In this document: in pieces, positions 34,591 through 42,016 of the stretch | How positions within the stretch are numbered: position 1 is the stretch's first letter | Layout: every line of letters starts with the position of its first letter | DNA from: an uncultured Vicinamibacterales bacterium | Lineage (GTDB): Bacteria; Acidobacteriota; Vicinamibacteria; Vicinamibacterales; UBA8438 | Direction: 5' to 3' | Assembly: GCA_958295905.1 (NCBI GenBank) | Contig: OY282382.1 | Coordinates: 4,198,910 to 4,262,909, forward strand | DNA: 64,000 nucleotides | Program-made: the position numbers and the translations under genes | The notes under the pieces: generated by a model | Database searches by the model: none | What the model saw: only the letters and a program-made list of their open reading frames with translations | Told to the model about the DNA's origin: nothing

Positions 34591-34779
34591 ATGACACAGG
34601 GCACACCGGGGGAGTGGGACAGGATCATCAAGAACCGCAAGCTGTTTTTCGCCGCTGAGCGGGCACTCGTCAAGGCGAGCGCGGAGTACGAAAAAGCACG
34701 GGTGGAGTACGAACGAGCGTGCACCCAAGTTGGGGTGACTCCCCACTACGCACCGGGACACCTTGACACCGTGCCGTAG
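34591..34779 (+). CDS. Small charged helical protein
   Basis: A 62-residue frame starting at ATG 34591, with an AGGAGG ribosome site at 34579-34584, seven bases upstream of the ATG. The sequence is dominated by an amphipathic helix (KNRKLFFAAERALVKASAEY, EKARVEYERACTQ), suggesting a coiled coil. There is no recognised family. The strong ribosome site favours a real small gene. Confidence 0.55.
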   Translation: MTQGTPGEWDRIIKNRKLFFAAERALVKASAEYEKARVEYERACTQVGVTPHYAPGHLDTVP

Positions 34780-35193: not shown

Positions 35194-36120
35194 GTGGTGA
35201 CCCCGCTGTTTCCGATCGAGTCCATTGAACCGGTTACCCCCAAGGGGCAGGGCGACCACGCGCCCCAGTACCTCCGTCTCGATGCGGAAGTAGACGGTGA
35301 ACTCCCTGCTCTGCCGGCCGCCACACTGATCCGCGGAAGAGCCTCGGATGCGCTCGACCTGCTGCCCGCCGAGAGCGTGCGTACGGTCGTTACGTCCCCA
35401 CCGTACTGGTCGCTGCGCGACTACGACGTCGGCGACCCGTTCGGACGGAACGACACCCTGCACGACTACGTAGCAAGCATCGTCGCCGACTTCCGCAAGC
35501 TCCGGCGTGTGCTGAAGGGCGACGGCACGGTATGGCTGAACATCGGCGATGCGTACACGTCCGGGAATCGCCGCTACCGGGCGCCGGACCGGAAGAACCG
35601 GGCGCGCGCGATGTCGGTCCGGCCCCGGACGCCGCGCGGACTCAAGCCCAAGGACCTGATCGGGCTGCCCTGGCGCGTCGCGTTCGCGCTGCAGGACGAC
35701 GGGTGGTGGGTACGGTCAGAGGTGATCTGGCACAAGCCGAACGCGCACCCGGAGTCAGTCGCCGACCGACCGACCAAGGCCCACGAAACGGTCTTTCTGC
35801 TGTCGAAGGACCAGGATTACCGTTACGACGTCAACGCCGTCCGCGGGGCCAACGACCGGCGCTTGAGAACGGTATGGGACATTCCGACCAGCCCGCGCCG
35901 ACGCCATCAGATCCCCGGTGATGATCACCCCGCGCCGATGCCAATCAACTTGGCCCATCGCTGCGTCACGCTCACGAGCGAACCGGGCGATGTGGTGCTG
36001 GATCCGTACGCCGGCTCCGGCACCACCCTGCTCGCGGCCGCGCAACTGCGACGGCGGTGGGTCGGTATCGAGCTCAAAGCGGAATTCGTGCGTCTGATCG
36101 AGCGTCGCATGAGCCGATGA
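35194..36120 (+). CDS. DNA methyltransferase, N4-cytosine type, of a restriction-modification system
   Basis: The 308-residue beta-class enzyme has its catalytic motif IV first: TSPPYWSLRDY near residues 67-77. SPPYW favours N4-cytosine methylation. The SAM-binding motif I (DPYAGSGTTLLAA) is C-terminal, near 270, with VGIELK following. The PKDLIGLPWRVAFALQDDGWW stretch is typical. The GTG at 35194 is the first start in frame. The stop overlaps the ATG of the restriction endonuclease gene (ATGA), confirming a cognate pair. Recognition sequence cannot be predicted. Confidence 0.92.
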   Translation: MVTPLFPIESIEPVTPKGQGDHAPQYLRLDAEVDGELPALPAATLIRGRASDALDLLPAESVRTVVTSPPYWSLRDYDVGDPFGRNDTLHDYVASIVADFRKLRRVLKGDGTVWLNIGDAYTSGNRRYRAPDRKNRARAMSVRPRTPRGLKPKDLIGLPWRVAFALQDDGWWVRSEVIWHKPNAHPESVADRPTKAHETVFLLSKDQDYRYDVNAVRGANDRRLRTVWDIPTSPRRRHQIPGDDHPAPMPINLAHRCVTLTSEPGDVVLDPYAGSGTTLLAAAQLRRRWVGIELKAEFVRLIERRMSR

Positions 36121-36929
36121 ACGATCGCGACAGCCTCAAGGCGCGCATCGACACCTTGTCCGCGATGGCCGTGCGGTTCGTTGCGAGGCTCGTTGATTCG
36201 CTGTCCGAGGCGCCCACGCCGAACACCGTCGCACCGACATGGTTGACCCGACATCCGGTAATGGATCGAGTACTTCTACTTCGGGCCCGCGATCTCGGCG
36301 CACCACGGCACGACGATCGAACCTCTCGGATTGACGAGTTTCGAAACCGTGTTTCGCAACGCGTGCGAAGCCTTGGATTGGTCGATTGACGCGCCCGGAT
36401 CGGCAACGCGACGATTCGTGGACCTGACGCTCACGCCGGCCGACGGAACGGCGCGGAGACTGTCGCTGAAATCGACCGCCGCCAGAAACCTCTCTGAGCG
36501 TACCGCCCACATCTCGAAGCTGACGGAAGCCGCATGGATTCAAGACGTGAGGAGTGCCAGAGCACGCCGCCAGCACACGCTGAAACTGTTCAGGGAGTAT
36601 CGTGCCGCGGTGGACGCGATCATTATGCTCAGAGCGTTCCGCGAACCGGACACGGTTCCGAACCGCTATCAACTCATCGAGATTCCCAGCGACTTGTTCA
36701 AATCTCTGGAGGACGCGCCGGAATCGGTATTCGCGGCCGACGGTCCGGTGCTCGACTGCGCCTACCGGGGGCTTTCTTCGGCGGCCCAAGTGTCGATTGA
36801 TCGGTCGGACGCCAAATCACGATCCGTCGCATCGACCCTGCCGCCTGCACGATCCACGTGGAATGGGGTCTGGTCCAGTCTACCGCCGAATCGACCGTTT
36901 CTCCGGCTCGTCCGGGCCAAGCTGGGTGA
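36117..36929 (+). pseudogene. Type II restriction endonuclease, interrupted by two frameshifts
   Basis: An ATG at 36117 starts MNDRDSLKARIDTLSAM and runs to TWLTRHPV near 36262. Coding sense then continues in the +1 frame as WIEYFYFGPAISAHHGTTIE and PLGLTSFETVFRNACEALDW, with a likely active-site segment RRFVDLTL..RLSLKSTAA of the PD-(D/E)xK kind. Near 36812 an A seems lost from an A-run, and sense resumes as ITIRRIDPAACTIHVEWGLV, ending at TGA 36927-36929. About 270 residues would be encoded if both shifts were corrected. Either the nuclease is dead or these are sequencing errors. Confidence 0.75.
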
Positions 36930-37427
36930 TTGGCGATCCCGGTGGCAATCCTGGTTTGATCCCGGCCGCGATTCTGGCGCACGACCACGGATCGGCGGCA
37001 CGGTCGAGCCAGCCGTACCACACGTCCTCCGCGCGCGCGGCTGCTCGATGTAGTCGACGAGGTTTTTTTCAGGCCGAGCCCCGCCGGACCGGCGGCGCCG
37101 CCCGTCCGGCATCGCCGGTCCGGCTTCACGCTGTCTCGAACGCGTGGTATCGTCAATGCTTGGCAGCCCGTGGCGAACCCCGCGTCGCCCCGAGAGCAGC
37201 GAGGACGCCAGCGGGCTGAAGAACGCCCGTGCCTGACAAGGCGTGAGTAGGCAACCGACGAACAACGCAGTCAGGCGGGATGCATCGCCGCTCGACGGCA
37301 GCAGGGACTTTCCGCCTCGGGCGGTTGGGCGCAGGTGGCGAACCGCCTGTTGCGCCGAGACCTGCGTTCCCAAGGCGGCCCGCCGAACGGGCCGCGCTCG
37401 ACCGACCACTGACAACTGGAGATCGCC
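36930..37427. repeat. Gap with a partial copy of interspersed repeat B (37162-37255)
   Basis: No gene is supported. 37162-37255 (GCCCGTGGCGAACCCCGCGT through the TGCCTGACAAGGCGTGAG segment) matches 34783-34875 closely. The region otherwise looks like unconstrained sequence up to the PQQ dehydrogenase. Confidence 0.6.
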
Positions 37428-39062
37428 ATGCAACGGCTCGTCACCGCCATCACCCTGCTCGCCTGCGCCGCCGGCGCGGCCGCCCAGCCCGCCGACACCG
37501 GGGCCGGCGCATCGCCGTCCCTGTCGCCCGTCACCTGGGAGCGTCTGCTGAACGCGGCCGACGAGCCCGAGAACTGGCTGATGTACTCGGGCACCCTCGA
37601 CGCCCAGCGCTACAGCCGGCTCGATCAGGTCCACAACCGCAACGTCGGCGGGCTCGAGCTGAAGTGGGCCTACCAGATCCCCCAGCTCGACCGCGCGGAG
37701 ACCGTTCCCCTCGTCGTCGACGGGGTGATGTTCATCACCGAGGCGCCGAGCAACGTCGTCGCCGTCGACGCCGCCACGGGCCGGCAGTACTGGCGCTACG
37801 ACCACCCGCTGCCCGACGACCTGCGCATCTGCTGCGGCCGCAACAACCGCGGCGTGGCCATCCTGGGCGACACGCTCTTCATGAGCACGCTGGACGCGCA
37901 CCTCGTCGCCATCGACGCGCGCACCGGGAACCTCGTGTGGGATCGGGAGGTCGCCGACCACCGGTCGGGGTACAGCAAGACGGCGGCTCCGCTGATCGTG
38001 AAGGGCGAGGTGGTGACGGGCATCGCCGGCGGCGAGTTCGGCATCCGCGGGTTCGTCGACGCCTACGACGCCGCGACCGGAGACCTGACGTGGCGGGCGT
38101 GGACGATTCCCGGCCCCGACCACCCCGACAACCAGACCTGGGCCGGCGACTCGTGGCGCACCGGCGGGTCGGCCAGCTGGATCACCGGCGCCTACGACCC
38201 CGACCTCGACCTCGTCTATTGGGGCACCGGCAACCCGGGTCCGGATTGGAACGGGGACGTGCGGCTCGGCGACAACCTCTACTCGGACTCGGTGCTGGCC
38301 ATCGACCACGAGACGGGCGGGCTCGAGTGGTACTTCCAATTCACACCCCACGACGTGCACGACTGGGACGCCATCCAGGTGCCGATTCTCGCCGACCTGA
38401 CGATGGACGGCGAGGAGCGCAAGGTCATGATGTGGGCGAACCGCAACGCGTTCTTCTACACCCTCGACCGCGTGACCGGCGAGTTCCTGGTGGGCAAGCC
38501 GTACGCCAAACAGACGTGGGCGGTGGGGCTCGACTCGAACGGCCGTCCGATTCGCGTGCCCGACACGTCGCCCACGCCCGAGGGGACGATCGTATCGCCG
38601 CCCGTCGTCGGGGGCACCAACTGGTTCTCGCCCGCCTACAGCCCGCGCACCGAGCTCTTCTACGTGCAGGCCTATGACGGCGAGGACATCTACTACAAGC
38701 GCGACGAGGACTACGTCGAGGGCGATCGCTACACCGGCGGCGGTTTCCAGCGGCCGCTGCCGGTCGAGAACTACGAGAGCGCCATTCGCGCCATCGACCC
38801 GCGGACCGGCGACGTCCGGTGGGAGTATCCGGTGCAGCCGCGCTCGACCGCGGGCGTCCTGGCGACGGCCGGCGACCTCGTGTTCAGCGGCAGCGTCGAC
38901 GGCTACTTCTACGCCCTTGACGCGGCCACCGGCGAAGCGCTGTGGCACGTCGCGGTCGGGGCCATGGTGCACGCCGCCCCGCTGACCTACGCCGTCGACG
39001 GCCGGCAGTACGTGACCGTCGCGGCCGGCAACGTGGTGTTCACGTTCGCGCTTCCGGAGTAG
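37428..39062 (+). CDS. PQQ-dependent alcohol dehydrogenase, possible lanthanide type
   Basis: The 544-residue periplasmic quinoprotein has a signal peptide (about residues 1-20). It has W-motif propeller blades and the vicinal disulfide Cys135-Cys136 (RICCGRNNRG) that sits against PQQ. Asn269 lies in WGTGNPGPDW. The catalytic Asp312 is followed by W and Asp314 (VHDWDAIQ), so the position two residues after the catalytic Asp is Asp, as in lanthanide-dependent XoxF-type enzymes, where calcium enzymes have Ala. It oxidises alcohols or aldehydes, presumably donating electrons to a cytochrome. No cytochrome gene is adjacent. A hairpin terminator follows. Confidence 0.9.
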   Translation: MQRLVTAITLLACAAGAAAQPADTGAGASPSLSPVTWERLLNAADEPENWLMYSGTLDAQRYSRLDQVHNRNVGGLELKWAYQIPQLDRAETVPLVVDGVMFITEAPSNVVAVDAATGRQYWRYDHPLPDDLRICCGRNNRGVAILGDTLFMSTLDAHLVAIDARTGNLVWDREVADHRSGYSKTAAPLIVKGEVVTGIAGGEFGIRGFVDAYDAATGDLTWRAWTIPGPDHPDNQTWAGDSWRTGGSASWITGAYDPDLDLVYWGTGNPGPDWNGDVRLGDNLYSDSVLAIDHETGGLEWYFQFTPHDVHDWDAIQVPILADLTMDGEERKVMMWANRNAFFYTLDRVTGEFLVGKPYAKQTWAVGLDSNGRPIRVPDTSPTPEGTIVSPPVVGGTNWFSPAYSPRTELFYVQAYDGEDIYYKRDEDYVEGDRYTGGGFQRPLPVENYESAIRAIDPRTGDVRWEYPVQPRSTAGVLATAGDLVFSGSVDGYFYALDAATGEALWHVAVGAMVHAAPLTYAVDGRQYVTVAAGNVVFTFALPE

Positions 39063-39080
39063 CCAAGGCCGCCCCTGACG

Positions 39081-39120
39081 CCGCGGGCGGGCGGGCGGGC
39101 AGCCGACCGCCCGCCCGCGG
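39081..39120. terminator. GC-rich hairpin terminator
   Basis: CCGCGGGCGGGCGG (39081-39094) pairs perfectly with 39107-39120 around a 12-base loop, 18 bases after the dehydrogenase stop. No U-tract follows. Confidence 0.6.
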
Positions 39121-39199
39121 CGCGCCGCAACCCGCGATCGATTCGTCTGGATACTCTCCTGCCGCGCAGGTGCCAAGCCCGAGATGACCGCAAGAGCGC

Positions 39200-40543
39200 A
39201 TGAACCGCAACCACTTCCAGGAAATCCGGCTGCATGATTTCCGCTGCTTCCACGACGAGCAGATGGCTCGTCTGGCGCCGCTCACGCTGCTCGTCGGCGA
39301 CAACAGCACCGGCAAGACGTCCTTTCTGGCCGCGGTGCGGGCAGTGTGGCAGGCTGCCTTCCGCCAAACCGAACTCGATTTCCGAGAGCCGCCCTACGAC
39401 CTCGGCGCGTTTCGCGAGATCGCGCACAACCGGAGCGATGGAGAAAACGGCACCAGTTCCTTCCGTCTCGGCTTCCGCGGCCACGGCCGACAGCGCAGAC
39501 CCGTCGAGTTCGACGTCACGTTCACATCCCGCGCCGCCGCACCCTCACCCTCACGGCTGTCCTGGCACACGAAGGACATCCGGGTCGAGTACTCCCGCGT
39601 CAACACCGGCAAGGCCACCATCGATCTCGCTTCCGGCAACGGGACGTGGCGTCTCGACGTGAATATCGAACGACCATTCAGGCGATGGTGGACATCTGCG
39701 CGATTGCTCGCCCACTGGATTGAAGCAACGATTGATGAATTCGACAGCAGTTACGATCGATTGCAGAAAATGGATGGTACGCTGAAGGCACCCAGTCGAG
39801 AGGATCTCAAGAACCTCTCGGACCTTCTGCGCCACTTCACTTTCCGCTCCGGGGAGCCTCCATTCGCCAGCGCTCCGATCCGTTCCAGCCCCAGCCGGAC
39901 ATATGATCTAGCCGGGTCCTCACCTGATCCAGGGGGCAAGAATGTACCAGCTTATATGCAAAGCGTGTATTTTCAGGACAGGAGCAGGTGGCTTCAACTC
40001 AAGGACCGACTGGAGCAATTCGGCCGCCGATCTGGTTTGTTCGAGGAAATCGGAGTAAAGCAACTGGGTGGAATCGAGGGCGGACCGTTCCAACTGCAGG
40101 TCAGAAAAGCCGGGACGAGCAGAGCGGGTCCGAGACGGAACCTGATAGATGTCGGATACGGCGTAAGCCAGGCGCTGCCGGTGCTCGTGGAGCTCTTCCG
40201 GCCTGATGCGCCACAGATGCTGCTCTTCCAGCAACCCGAGGTGCATCTGCATCCAAGCGCCCAGGCCGCCCTCGGTACCTTGTTCTGTGAGACCGCAGCA
40301 GCCGGCCGGCAGCTCATCATCGAGACCCACAGCGACTATATCGTCGATCGCGTCCTCCTCGACGTTCGCGACCGACGTACCGATTTGGAAGCGGAAGACG
40401 TATCGATCCTCTATTTTCAGCGTGAAGATCTCGACGTCCGCATTCACTCCATTCGCGTCGACGACGAAGGGAGCGTACTCGATGCGCCCGAAGGATACCG
40501 GCGTTTCTTCCAGGACGAGCTGAACCGGGTGATCAGCTACTGA
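39200..40543 (+). CDS. AAA ATPase of the DUF3696/OLD-like group, paired with a PIN protein
   Basis: The 447-residue protein has the SMC/OLD-like N-terminal LHDFRCF..LAPLTLLVGDNSTGKTS (Walker A at 33-41). A long variable middle region follows, then a C-terminal half with GVSQALPVL, the Walker B-like LLFQQPEVHLHPSAQ and the switch segment IIETHSDYIVDR. There is no Toprim nuclease domain. Its stop overlaps the next gene (TGATG). ATPases of this shape drive several anti-phage systems when coupled to a nuclease. I infer a defence role but cannot name the system. Local GC is lower than in flanking genes. Confidence 0.85.
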   Translation: MNRNHFQEIRLHDFRCFHDEQMARLAPLTLLVGDNSTGKTSFLAAVRAVWQAAFRQTELDFREPPYDLGAFREIAHNRSDGENGTSSFRLGFRGHGRQRRPVEFDVTFTSRAAAPSPSRLSWHTKDIRVEYSRVNTGKATIDLASGNGTWRLDVNIERPFRRWWTSARLLAHWIEATIDEFDSSYDRLQKMDGTLKAPSREDLKNLSDLLRHFTFRSGEPPFASAPIRSSPSRTYDLAGSSPDPGGKNVPAYMQSVYFQDRSRWLQLKDRLEQFGRRSGLFEEIGVKQLGGIEGGPFQLQVRKAGTSRAGPRRNLIDVGYGVSQALPVLVELFRPDAPQMLLFQQPEVHLHPSAQAALGTLFCETAAAGRQLIIETHSDYIVDRVLLDVRDRRTDLEAEDVSILYFQREDLDVRIHSIRVDDEGSVLDAPEGYRRFFQDELNRVISY

Positions 40544-41136
40544 TGTGCGCCATAGTCGACGCCAACGTGACGTTCGAAGTGTTCGGGAGAAAGCAGACCG
40601 AGGCCGGCAGGAAGTTCCGGGACTGGCTCGACGGGAACGGCGGGGCTCTCGTGGTCGGCGGGAAGAACCTGACCGAGCTTGCGCACAACGGCAGTTTCCG
40701 GAGGTGGTTTGTGGAGGCGCGGCGGCTGACCGGACGGGTTCGACAAGTAGGCAAGGCGCAGATCGAGATCCAGGAGGAAGAACTCCGGCGGGGTGGCCGG
40801 TGCAGGTCCGATGACGAGCACGTTCTTGCCCTCGCCCTGGTGAGTGGGGCACGTCTTCTGTACTCCAATGATGGCGACCTGAAGGACGATTTCTCCGACG
40901 CCGGCATCATCCAGAGACCCAAGGGGCGGGTATACACGACGCAGGAGTCCAAGAGCTACACGCCCGAGCACCAGGCGCTTCTGGAGACGAAGAGTCTCTG
41001 TCGCGGCGTCCGGAAATTCGCTACGAACTTGGCCGCTGATCGGACGCGGGGCGTTCCTGACGTCTCCCGTAGATCGGCGCGTTCGCGCCAAGCGCTGATT
41101 TGCACCCGGACCGCGCGCGACGTTGGGGCGGCGTAA
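40543..41136 (+). CDS. PIN-domain nuclease partner of the AAA ATPase
   Basis: The 197-residue protein begins MCAIVDANV, with Asp6 as the first PIN acidic residue. It continues with Glu45 in NLTEL, the acidic cluster SDDEHVLALAL near 89-99 and SNDGDLKDDF near 108-117, so all expected metal-binding residues are present. The core ends about residue 165. The tail (VPDVSRRSARSRQALICTRT) is basic and low-complexity and may be read-through after a lost stop. The ATG overlaps the ATPase stop, implying coupled translation and a physical complex. It probably cleaves RNA or DNA when activated. Confidence 0.82.
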   Translation: MCAIVDANVTFEVFGRKQTEAGRKFRDWLDGNGGALVVGGKNLTELAHNGSFRRWFVEARRLTGRVRQVGKAQIEIQEEELRRGGRCRSDDEHVLALALVSGARLLYSNDGDLKDDFSDAGIIQRPKGRVYTTQESKSYTPEHQALLETKSLCRGVRKFATNLAADRTRGVPDVSRRSARSRQALICTRTARDVGAA

Positions 41137-41179
41137 CCGTCCGTCGCCGCCGTGATGCCGTCACGAGGAGGACCGACCC

Positions 41180-42016
41180 TTGCCGGAGCTGCCGGAGGTC
41201 GAGCGGGGCCGCAGGCTCGCGGAGTCGGTGGCGGCGGGGCGGCGCGTCGCGCGGGTCTGGTGCGAGGACGATCCGCGGGTGTTCGACGGGGTCGCGCCGG
41301 ACCACTGGCGGGACGCGCTCGAGGGCCGGCGGGTCGAGGCGGCGCGGCGCTGGGGCAAGCAGCTCTGGTTCGTCCTCGACGAGCCGCCGCATCCCCTCTT
41401 CCATTTCGGGATGGCCGGCGGGTTCAAGACCCCGGCGTCGACGCCGCTGCAGCTCAAGTCGGGGCCGAAGGAGGACCCGGCGGTCTGGCCGCCGCGATTC
41501 GTGAAGATCCGGATGCGCTTCGACGACGGCGGCGAGCTCGCGATGACCGACGGCCGCCGCCTCGGCCGCATCCTGCTGCGCGACGATCCGCAGGCCGAGC
41601 CCCCCGTCGCCAGGCTCGGCTTCGACCCCCTGCTGGCGATGCCCCCGCCGAAGCGGTTCTCCGGGCTGATCCGCGCGCGCGGCGCCAACGTGAAGTCGCT
41701 CCTGCTCGACCAGTCGTTCGCGGCCGGAGTCGGCAACTGGATCGCGGACGAGGTGCTGTACCAGGCCGGCATCGATCCGCGGCGCCGCGCCACCTCGCTG
41801 ACGGACGCCGAAGCCCGGCGCGTGCGCGCTCGGCTCGCGGCGATCGTCAAGCGCGCGGTCGACGCGAACGCCGACGACTCGCGCTACCCCCGCACGTGGC
41901 TGTTCCACCGGCGCTGGGGCAAGCGTGCGGACGCGCGGACGACGCGCGGCGAGCGCATCGAGCACCTGACGATCGGTGGACGCACGACCGCGTGGGCGCC
42001 GACCGCGCAGCACTGA
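41180..42016 (+). CDS. Formamidopyrimidine-DNA glycosylase-like protein without zinc finger
   Basis: The 278-residue Fpg/Nei-family base-excision enzyme keeps the catalytic N-terminus PELPEVE (Pro2, Glu3), Lys60 (RRWGKQ), and the helix-two-turn-helix segment AAGVGNWIADEVLYQAGIDP. The C-terminal zinc finger cysteines are absent. The region TIGGRTTAWAPTAQ still has the loop Arg, so it resembles zincless-finger members. The TTG at 41180 places Pro at residue 2 after processing and has GAGGAGG upstream. It repairs oxidised purines. Confidence 0.9.
   Translation: MPELPEVERGRRLAESVAAGRRVARVWCEDDPRVFDGVAPDHWRDALEGRRVEAARRWGKQLWFVLDEPPHPLFHFGMAGGFKTPASTPLQLKSGPKEDPAVWPPRFVKIRMRFDDGGELAMTDGRRLGRILLRDDPQAEPPVARLGFDPLLAMPPPKRFSGLIRARGANVKSLLLDQSFAAGVGNWIADEVLYQAGIDPRRRATSLTDAEARRVRARLAAIVKRAVDANADDSRYPRTWLFHRRWGKRADARTTRGERIEHLTIGGRTTAWAPTAQH

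Follow-up and report, generated by a model that had tools for sequence, protein, structure and literature searches.

OLD-ABC ATPases of BREX and BR (Hma) loci are found in pairs with HNH, PD-(D/E)XK or PIN-endoRNase partners, and such OLD-ABC/nuclease pairs have been proposed as backup suicide effectors (PMC12839542, 2026). The tRNA nuclease of PARIS, AriB, is switched on by AriA, the sensor of Ocr (PMC12839542), and Menshen (NsnA-NsnB-NsnC) combines NsnB with a DUF262 protein and with an OLD nuclease (PMC10952713). The name HEC denotes Hma-embedded candidates (PMC10855318, PMC12988326). In our study, a locus from an uncultured Vicinamibacterales bacterium has been analysed within a 64,000-nucleotide stretch of its genome (the window), and it was found to encode an ABC ATPase of the OLD family and, in the same operon, a nuclease, as expected for the OLD-ABC plus nuclease class of defence genes. 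The architecture is known in outline, since OLD-ABC plus PIN pairs are already contained in the in silico work of PMC12839542, with the same two components and the same kind of locus (DUF499 systems) as in the family of the window. In that work, such pairs appear only within a class comprising 594 taxa whose nucleases are of alternative types; the present analysis delimits a family by both of its genes and shows that it also occurs as stand-alone insertions, that its site is empty in congeners, that phages carry it and that it is transferred across phyla. The original prediction had seen no named two-gene system in this pair and had called for a defence-system profile search. PADLOC was run and no system fits the ATPase together with the PIN protein; the idea of an OLD ATPase with a PIN nuclease was already present in PMC12839542.

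The coordinates of the features are collected in Table 1. The two open reading frames agree with what had been read from the letters at the outset, namely a DUF3696/OLD-like ATPase lacking a nuclease of its own, coupled by a TGATG start-stop overlap to a PIN protein with all its metal ligands. The four acidic ligands are D6, E45, D91 and D110. At the junction, the last base of the ATPase stop codon TGA (40541-40543) is also the first base of the PIN start codon ATG at 40543, giving a one-base overlap. In Pfam, the ATPase matched AAA_21 (5e-20) and AAA_15 (4e-18), the DUF3696 match stayed below its cut-off, and no TOPRIM or other nuclease domain was found in the protein. Lys39 of the Walker A motif is kept in 73 of 74 ATPase relatives. 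The AF2 model of the ATPase (pLDDT 90.5) matched Rad50, SMC heads and PtuA in Foldseek, and the closest entries in a PDB sequence search were OLD, PtuA and GajA. The PIN frame matched PF01850 at 1.3e-5 in Pfam and none of the PADLOC models; neither frame gave a match at the NCBIfam cut-offs. The AF2 model of the PIN protein (pLDDT 94) resembles VapC toxins, VapC20 and the SMG6 PIN domain at Z 9.6-9.7, the resemblance being weaker by Foldseek alone (TM about 0.5), and when the PIN profile was searched against PDB sequences, VapC 7by2 was the sole match (E 0.19). Residues 158-197 are regarded as an unconserved tail because the homologues, of about 155 aa, stop near residue 157. An origin of this tail from a repeat element was rejected, as the tail is single copy in the genome.

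Table 1. Positions of the ATPase-PIN pair, its motifs and its flanking features in the window.
Feature	Coordinates	Strand	Remarks
OLD/Rad50-type ABC ATPase ORF	39200..40543	+	447 aa; DUF3696-like C-terminus; without nuclease domain
Walker A GDNSTGKT, residues 33-40	39296..39319	+	nearly invariant in alignments A2 and A8
ABC-signature-like GYGVSQ, residues 319-324	40154..40171	+	G319, G321, S323 and Q324 invariant in A8
Walker B LLFQQPEVHLHP, residues 341-352	40220..40255	+	Q344, Q345, E347, H349 and H351 invariant in A8
Switch His377 of IETHSD	40328..40330	+	kept in 71/74 relatives
DUF3696-like stretch, residues 397-432	40388..40495	+	PF12476 at 20.5 bits, cut-off 22
PIN-domain nuclease ORF	40543..41136	+	197 aa, of which 157 (up to 41013) form the conserved core and ~40 an unconserved tail
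PIN acidic ligand Asp6	40558..40560	+	72/74, remaining two gapped
PIN acidic ligand Glu45	40675..40677	+	72/74
PIN acidic ligand Asp91	40813..40815	+	71/74
PIN acidic ligand Asp110	40870..40872	+	71/74
Segment missing at the same site in two congeners	39063..41180		homology to G001/G002 breaks there
GC-rich inverted repeat I12 upstream of the pair	39079..39122		possible terminator of the upstream gene

The ATPase matched the PADLOC models NsnB (1.4e-46; 157.9 bits, with residues 297-438 as the best stretch), PDC-M55A (1.5e-28), HEC-03B (1.5e-26) and AriA (3.5e-20). NsnB being the best model, Menshen was considered for the pair and was rejected, as NsnA (DUF262) and the OLD nuclease NsnC are missing and the neighbours are PQQ dehydrogenase, Fpg and the PIN gene. 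HEC-03 is similar in having a DUF3696 OLD-type ATPase (HEC-03B) followed by the small overlapping HEC-03A of about 160-177 aa with PIN-like motifs, and it is linked to Hma loci by name. However, the window ATPase scores better with NsnB than with HEC-03B. In a comparison of HEC-03A with the PIN profile the acidic motifs align, as a weak match (probability 7%, E 0.005), and the HEC-03A model of PADLOC gave no match in the PIN protein or its relatives; identity with HEC-03 was rejected on the absence of this HEC-03A match. PARIS shares the nuclease-free OLD-type ATPase with a separate small nuclease and offers a mechanistic model in its activated tRNA nuclease, but AriB is a TOPRIM nuclease whereas a PIN protein is present here, and the AriA profile is weaker than the three other models. 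In case of Septu and the retron PtuA-PtuB proteins, an OLD/Rad50-like ATPase is likewise accompanied by a separate nuclease and the structures are among the closest solved ones; PtuB, on the other hand, is an HNH protein. No HNH, TOPRIM or helicase, which are features of PtuB, GajA or GajB, was found in the cassette. The PIN protein is similar to VapC of VapBC in its fold (Z up to 9.7) and its four acidic ligands, whereas its partner is an overlapping upstream ATPase of 447 aa in place of the small DNA-binding VapB antitoxin. DefensePredictor DS-5 is also a two-protein system which needs a PIN RNase and a partner, but that partner is a DUF5830/AcrIF4-like protein and not an ATPase (PMC13092281).

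The ATPase and PIN genes are a two-gene unit. Scanning of 84,980 species with the PIN profile (alignment A3) gave 78 PIN loci, a scan which reaches close kin only because its patterns were derived from the relatives of the window, and the same ATPase was found directly upstream in 76 of these 78 (two of the 76 are cut by contig edges), with a gap mostly of -4 to +12 nt. The distance matrices of ATPase and PIN are correlated at r=0.86, a value equalled by 0 of 2000 permutations. There is no third conserved gene, as no other neighbour family occurs in more than about 10 of the 78 loci. In one of the two exceptions (L099), the ATPase is reduced to a remnant and the PIN gene is frameshifted, so this is a decayed copy. 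The other (L068) is an orphan PIN gene, apparently intact, without an ATPase, and hence the PIN protein alone may not be strongly toxic, or the assembly of this locus may be faulty. At two loci (L151 and L038), one ATPase is followed by two tandem PIN genes.

In the window, the pair is located between two housekeeping genes, a PQQ dehydrogenase upstream and Fpg downstream. In two genomes of the same genus (G001 and G002), the dehydrogenase is followed directly by Fpg and the pair is absent; homology to them ends at 39062-39064, at the stop of the dehydrogenase, and restarts at 41181, at the start of Fpg. Judged from these alignments, the segment between is probably an inserted cassette with its own flanks. 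With 61.4%, the pair has a GC content below that of every other window stretch of equal length and of the window as a whole (70.3%), and its third codon positions have a GC of 0.69 where the neighbouring genes have 0.95, which confirms the lower GC noticed originally. This low GC favours a gain here rather than a loss in the congeners, whose empty dehydrogenase/Fpg site (L138 and L139) carries the start region of Fpg in short tandem copies. The inverted repeat upstream of the pair is possibly the terminator of the upstream gene, and the downstream flank has no second copy elsewhere in the genome. A position of the pair between repeats, as first proposed, was not found; the 89-nt direct repeat, with copies at 34779 and 37163 that are 90% identical, brackets the methylase and restriction genes instead. 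In that locus (35194-37160), a type II methylase (MTase_II 4e-95) is followed by a restriction-enzyme fragment (REase_II 8e-8), apparently split across frames. The restriction-modification pair noticed a few kb away thus comprises, 3-4 kb from the ATPase-PIN pair, this methylase and a restriction enzyme that is probably broken.

Relatives of the pair span 15 phyla, and the ATPase tree needs 29 phylum changes against a minimum possible of 15, with phylum labels taken from the titles of metagenome-assembled genomes, some of which are perhaps erroneous (L026 and L029, although near-identical, bear different phylum names). Lateral transfer of the pair between phyla is clearly indicated by these sequences. 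The presence of the pair is sporadic (5 of 100 relatives and 7 of 396 of the phylum). A second copy in the same genome is 49% and 45% identical to the window copy in its two proteins; it falls in another clade, and therefore the two copies were probably acquired separately.

Most copies, including that of the window, stand alone among housekeeping genes, outside defence islands. A DUF1156 methylase (HmaB) precedes the pair at 10 of the 78 loci, and 9 of the 78 have the pair between HmaB and a DUF499 ATPase (HmaC), an arrangement which is also seen at the second copy in the own genome and at the copy in G023. Proximity to DUF499 was chosen as the test because broad PADLOC/Pfam annotation of the neighbours gave a mixed picture; in single-chromosome genomes, DUF499 genes lie within 10 kb of a PIN gene in 4 of 25 cases against 0.17 expected (P 3e-5), a statistic which rests on four islands. 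A steady association with housekeeping loci and a lack of enrichment near defence genes, which the original prediction had named as evidence against a defence role, are not seen for the family, as the housekeeping neighbours of the lone copies vary by locus, none of them being constant, and the DUF499 genes are enriched. In the Hma-type island of the own genome (C1:5817000-5836900), the second ATPase-PIN copy is accompanied by a DUF1156 methylase, a DUF499 ATPase and additional ATPase genes, and a short upstream ORF there is TIR-like by eye. At two other loci (L033 and L150), several different pairs of an ATPase and a small nuclease (DUF4276 and others) stand in a row between HmaB and HmaC.

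A direct search of plasmids, phage records and viral contigs with the PIN patterns found no PIN relatives; the viral and plasmid relatives of the pair were recovered only through ATPase searches. By the ATPase profile, two viral contigs were found to carry the whole pair. In one of them (L127), the pair is encoded on the opposite strand, with the portal gene on one side and the terminase large subunit gene on the other, again with a one-base overlap; in the other (L128), it is found beyond a Rha regulator and genes which, from their translations, are endolysin-, spanin- and holin-like. Such cargo positions in phages are typical for genes directed against competing phages. On a third viral contig (L133), a PIN-like protein accompanies an ATPase that is more distantly related. 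On three further viral contigs (L134, L135 and L136), related ATPases are followed by unrelated proteins of 295-384 aa, which are possible further effector types; that of L134 was unmatched in PADLOC.

The closest full-length plasmid ATPases, from Rhodococcus, Aeromonas and Azotobacter, are 25-27% identical to the window ATPase, and each is followed by an overlapping protein of 169-177 aa starting with VIDTNV and then by an RNA ligase. A Tistrella plasmid locus has the same order of ATPase, PIN-like protein and RNA ligase, and in an Acinetobacter plasmid locus an HNH gene takes the place of the ligase, which is thus present in 4 of 5 plasmid HEC-03 loci. The first two genes of these plasmid cousins are named HEC-03B and HEC-03A by PADLOC, the plasmid members scoring 1e-110 to 7e-134 with the ATPase model. 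In four of the plasmid loci (L103, L104, L105 and L107), the DUF3696 ATPase, the PIN-like HEC-03A and the RNA ligase form one apparent operon. The adjoining ligase suggests that RNA may be the substrate of the PIN-like nuclease.

Taken together, the pair is rather probably a self-contained mobile anti-phage module of the class 'OLD-type ABC ATPase plus effector nuclease', because its relatives travel as a unit between phyla, recur in defence islands and ride on phages; the PIN protein would cut RNA. The candidate two-gene defence system of the original prediction is thereby supported, by the near-obligate pairing, co-divergence, lateral transfer, Hma islands, phage cargo and the empty site of the congeners. 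By comparison with PARIS AriA-AriB, Septu PtuA-PtuB and VapC, the ATPase would be both the sensor and an oligomeric head keeping the bound PIN protein inactive. The ATPase may be altered by a phage cue, which could be a protein of the phage or a disturbance in the state of nucleic acids or nucleotides, so that the PIN protein is freed or activated. VapC toxins cleave tRNA or rRNA, and going by the families involved, the PIN protein would most likely cleave one of these, so that translation and with it phage growth would stop, leading to growth arrest.

A different substrate can be considered, since structured DNA can also be cleaved by PIN nucleases. The Rad50/OLD-like ATPase would then load onto invading or damaged DNA and the PIN protein would cut it, in a restriction- or repair-like complex. 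The model of the ATPase is nearest to Rad50 and SMC heads, its relatives GajA and Old are DNA nucleases, and in Hma loci the pair adjoins methylases. However, the PIN model is nearest to VapC RNases and the SMG6 PIN domain, the cousins (though distant ones only) are paired with an RNA ligase, and the window cassette has no cognate modification gene, and we consider this action on DNA unlikely. The VapC-like fold together with the two-gene overlap, the mobility and the sporadic presence would also suit a module of toxin-antitoxin or addiction type that chiefly maintains itself, with the ATPase as the antitoxin of a VapC-like toxin, as would the decayed copy in which the ATPase is almost gone and the PIN gene is frameshifted. 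Yet an ATPase of 450 aa is not known as an antitoxin of VapB type, the orphan PIN gene is apparently tolerated, and the embedding in Hma islands and the phage cargo positions point to defence. Self-maintenance as the main effect therefore appears quite unlikely, and addiction and defence are compatible with each other. A host-beneficial RNA processing or stress-response module with no connection to phages would agree with the location of most copies among housekeeping genes and with a possible sponge-symbiont link. It is rendered very improbable by the sporadic presence in relatives and phylum, the cross-phylum transfer, the phage carriage and the lack of a constant housekeeping neighbour.

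As regards habitat, eleven jk18x records match the names of bins from Caribbean Ircinia sponges (PMC9531527), two records correspond to Aplysina bin80 (PMC5649159), and the codes of 18 records appear to fit the host sponges of PMC8163846. Two CO36386 records would fit Cliona orientalis and four p16x records seem to belong with the jk18x ones; these assignments are made by record and bin names, and the remaining 41 of the 78 loci fall outside them. Genes for restriction-modification, CRISPR and toxin-antitoxin systems are abundant in sponge symbionts, among which gene exchange also occurs (PMC8163846, PMC5649159). For the pair family, the link to sponges is a strong lead rather than a result, and the viral and plasmid relatives show that the family at large also occurs outside sponges. 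A more far-reaching picture, of a phage-borne and so far unnamed family of ATPase-PIN immunity genes which spread laterally through sponge symbionts of at least 15 phyla as a shared immune pool of one habitat, with the RNA cut of the PIN protein coupled to a ligase in the plasmid cousins (cut-and-reseal), is offered tentatively and is doubtful as a whole.

This study has described a compact two-gene candidate which is absent from PADLOC-DB 2.0. The preferred reading as an anti-phage module would add PIN RNases to the effectors coupled with OLD-type sensors, and the candidate connects the forms that one architecture takes in plasmids, phages and symbionts. If the sponge bias is true, the pair would be a marker for defence genes common to one host-associated community.
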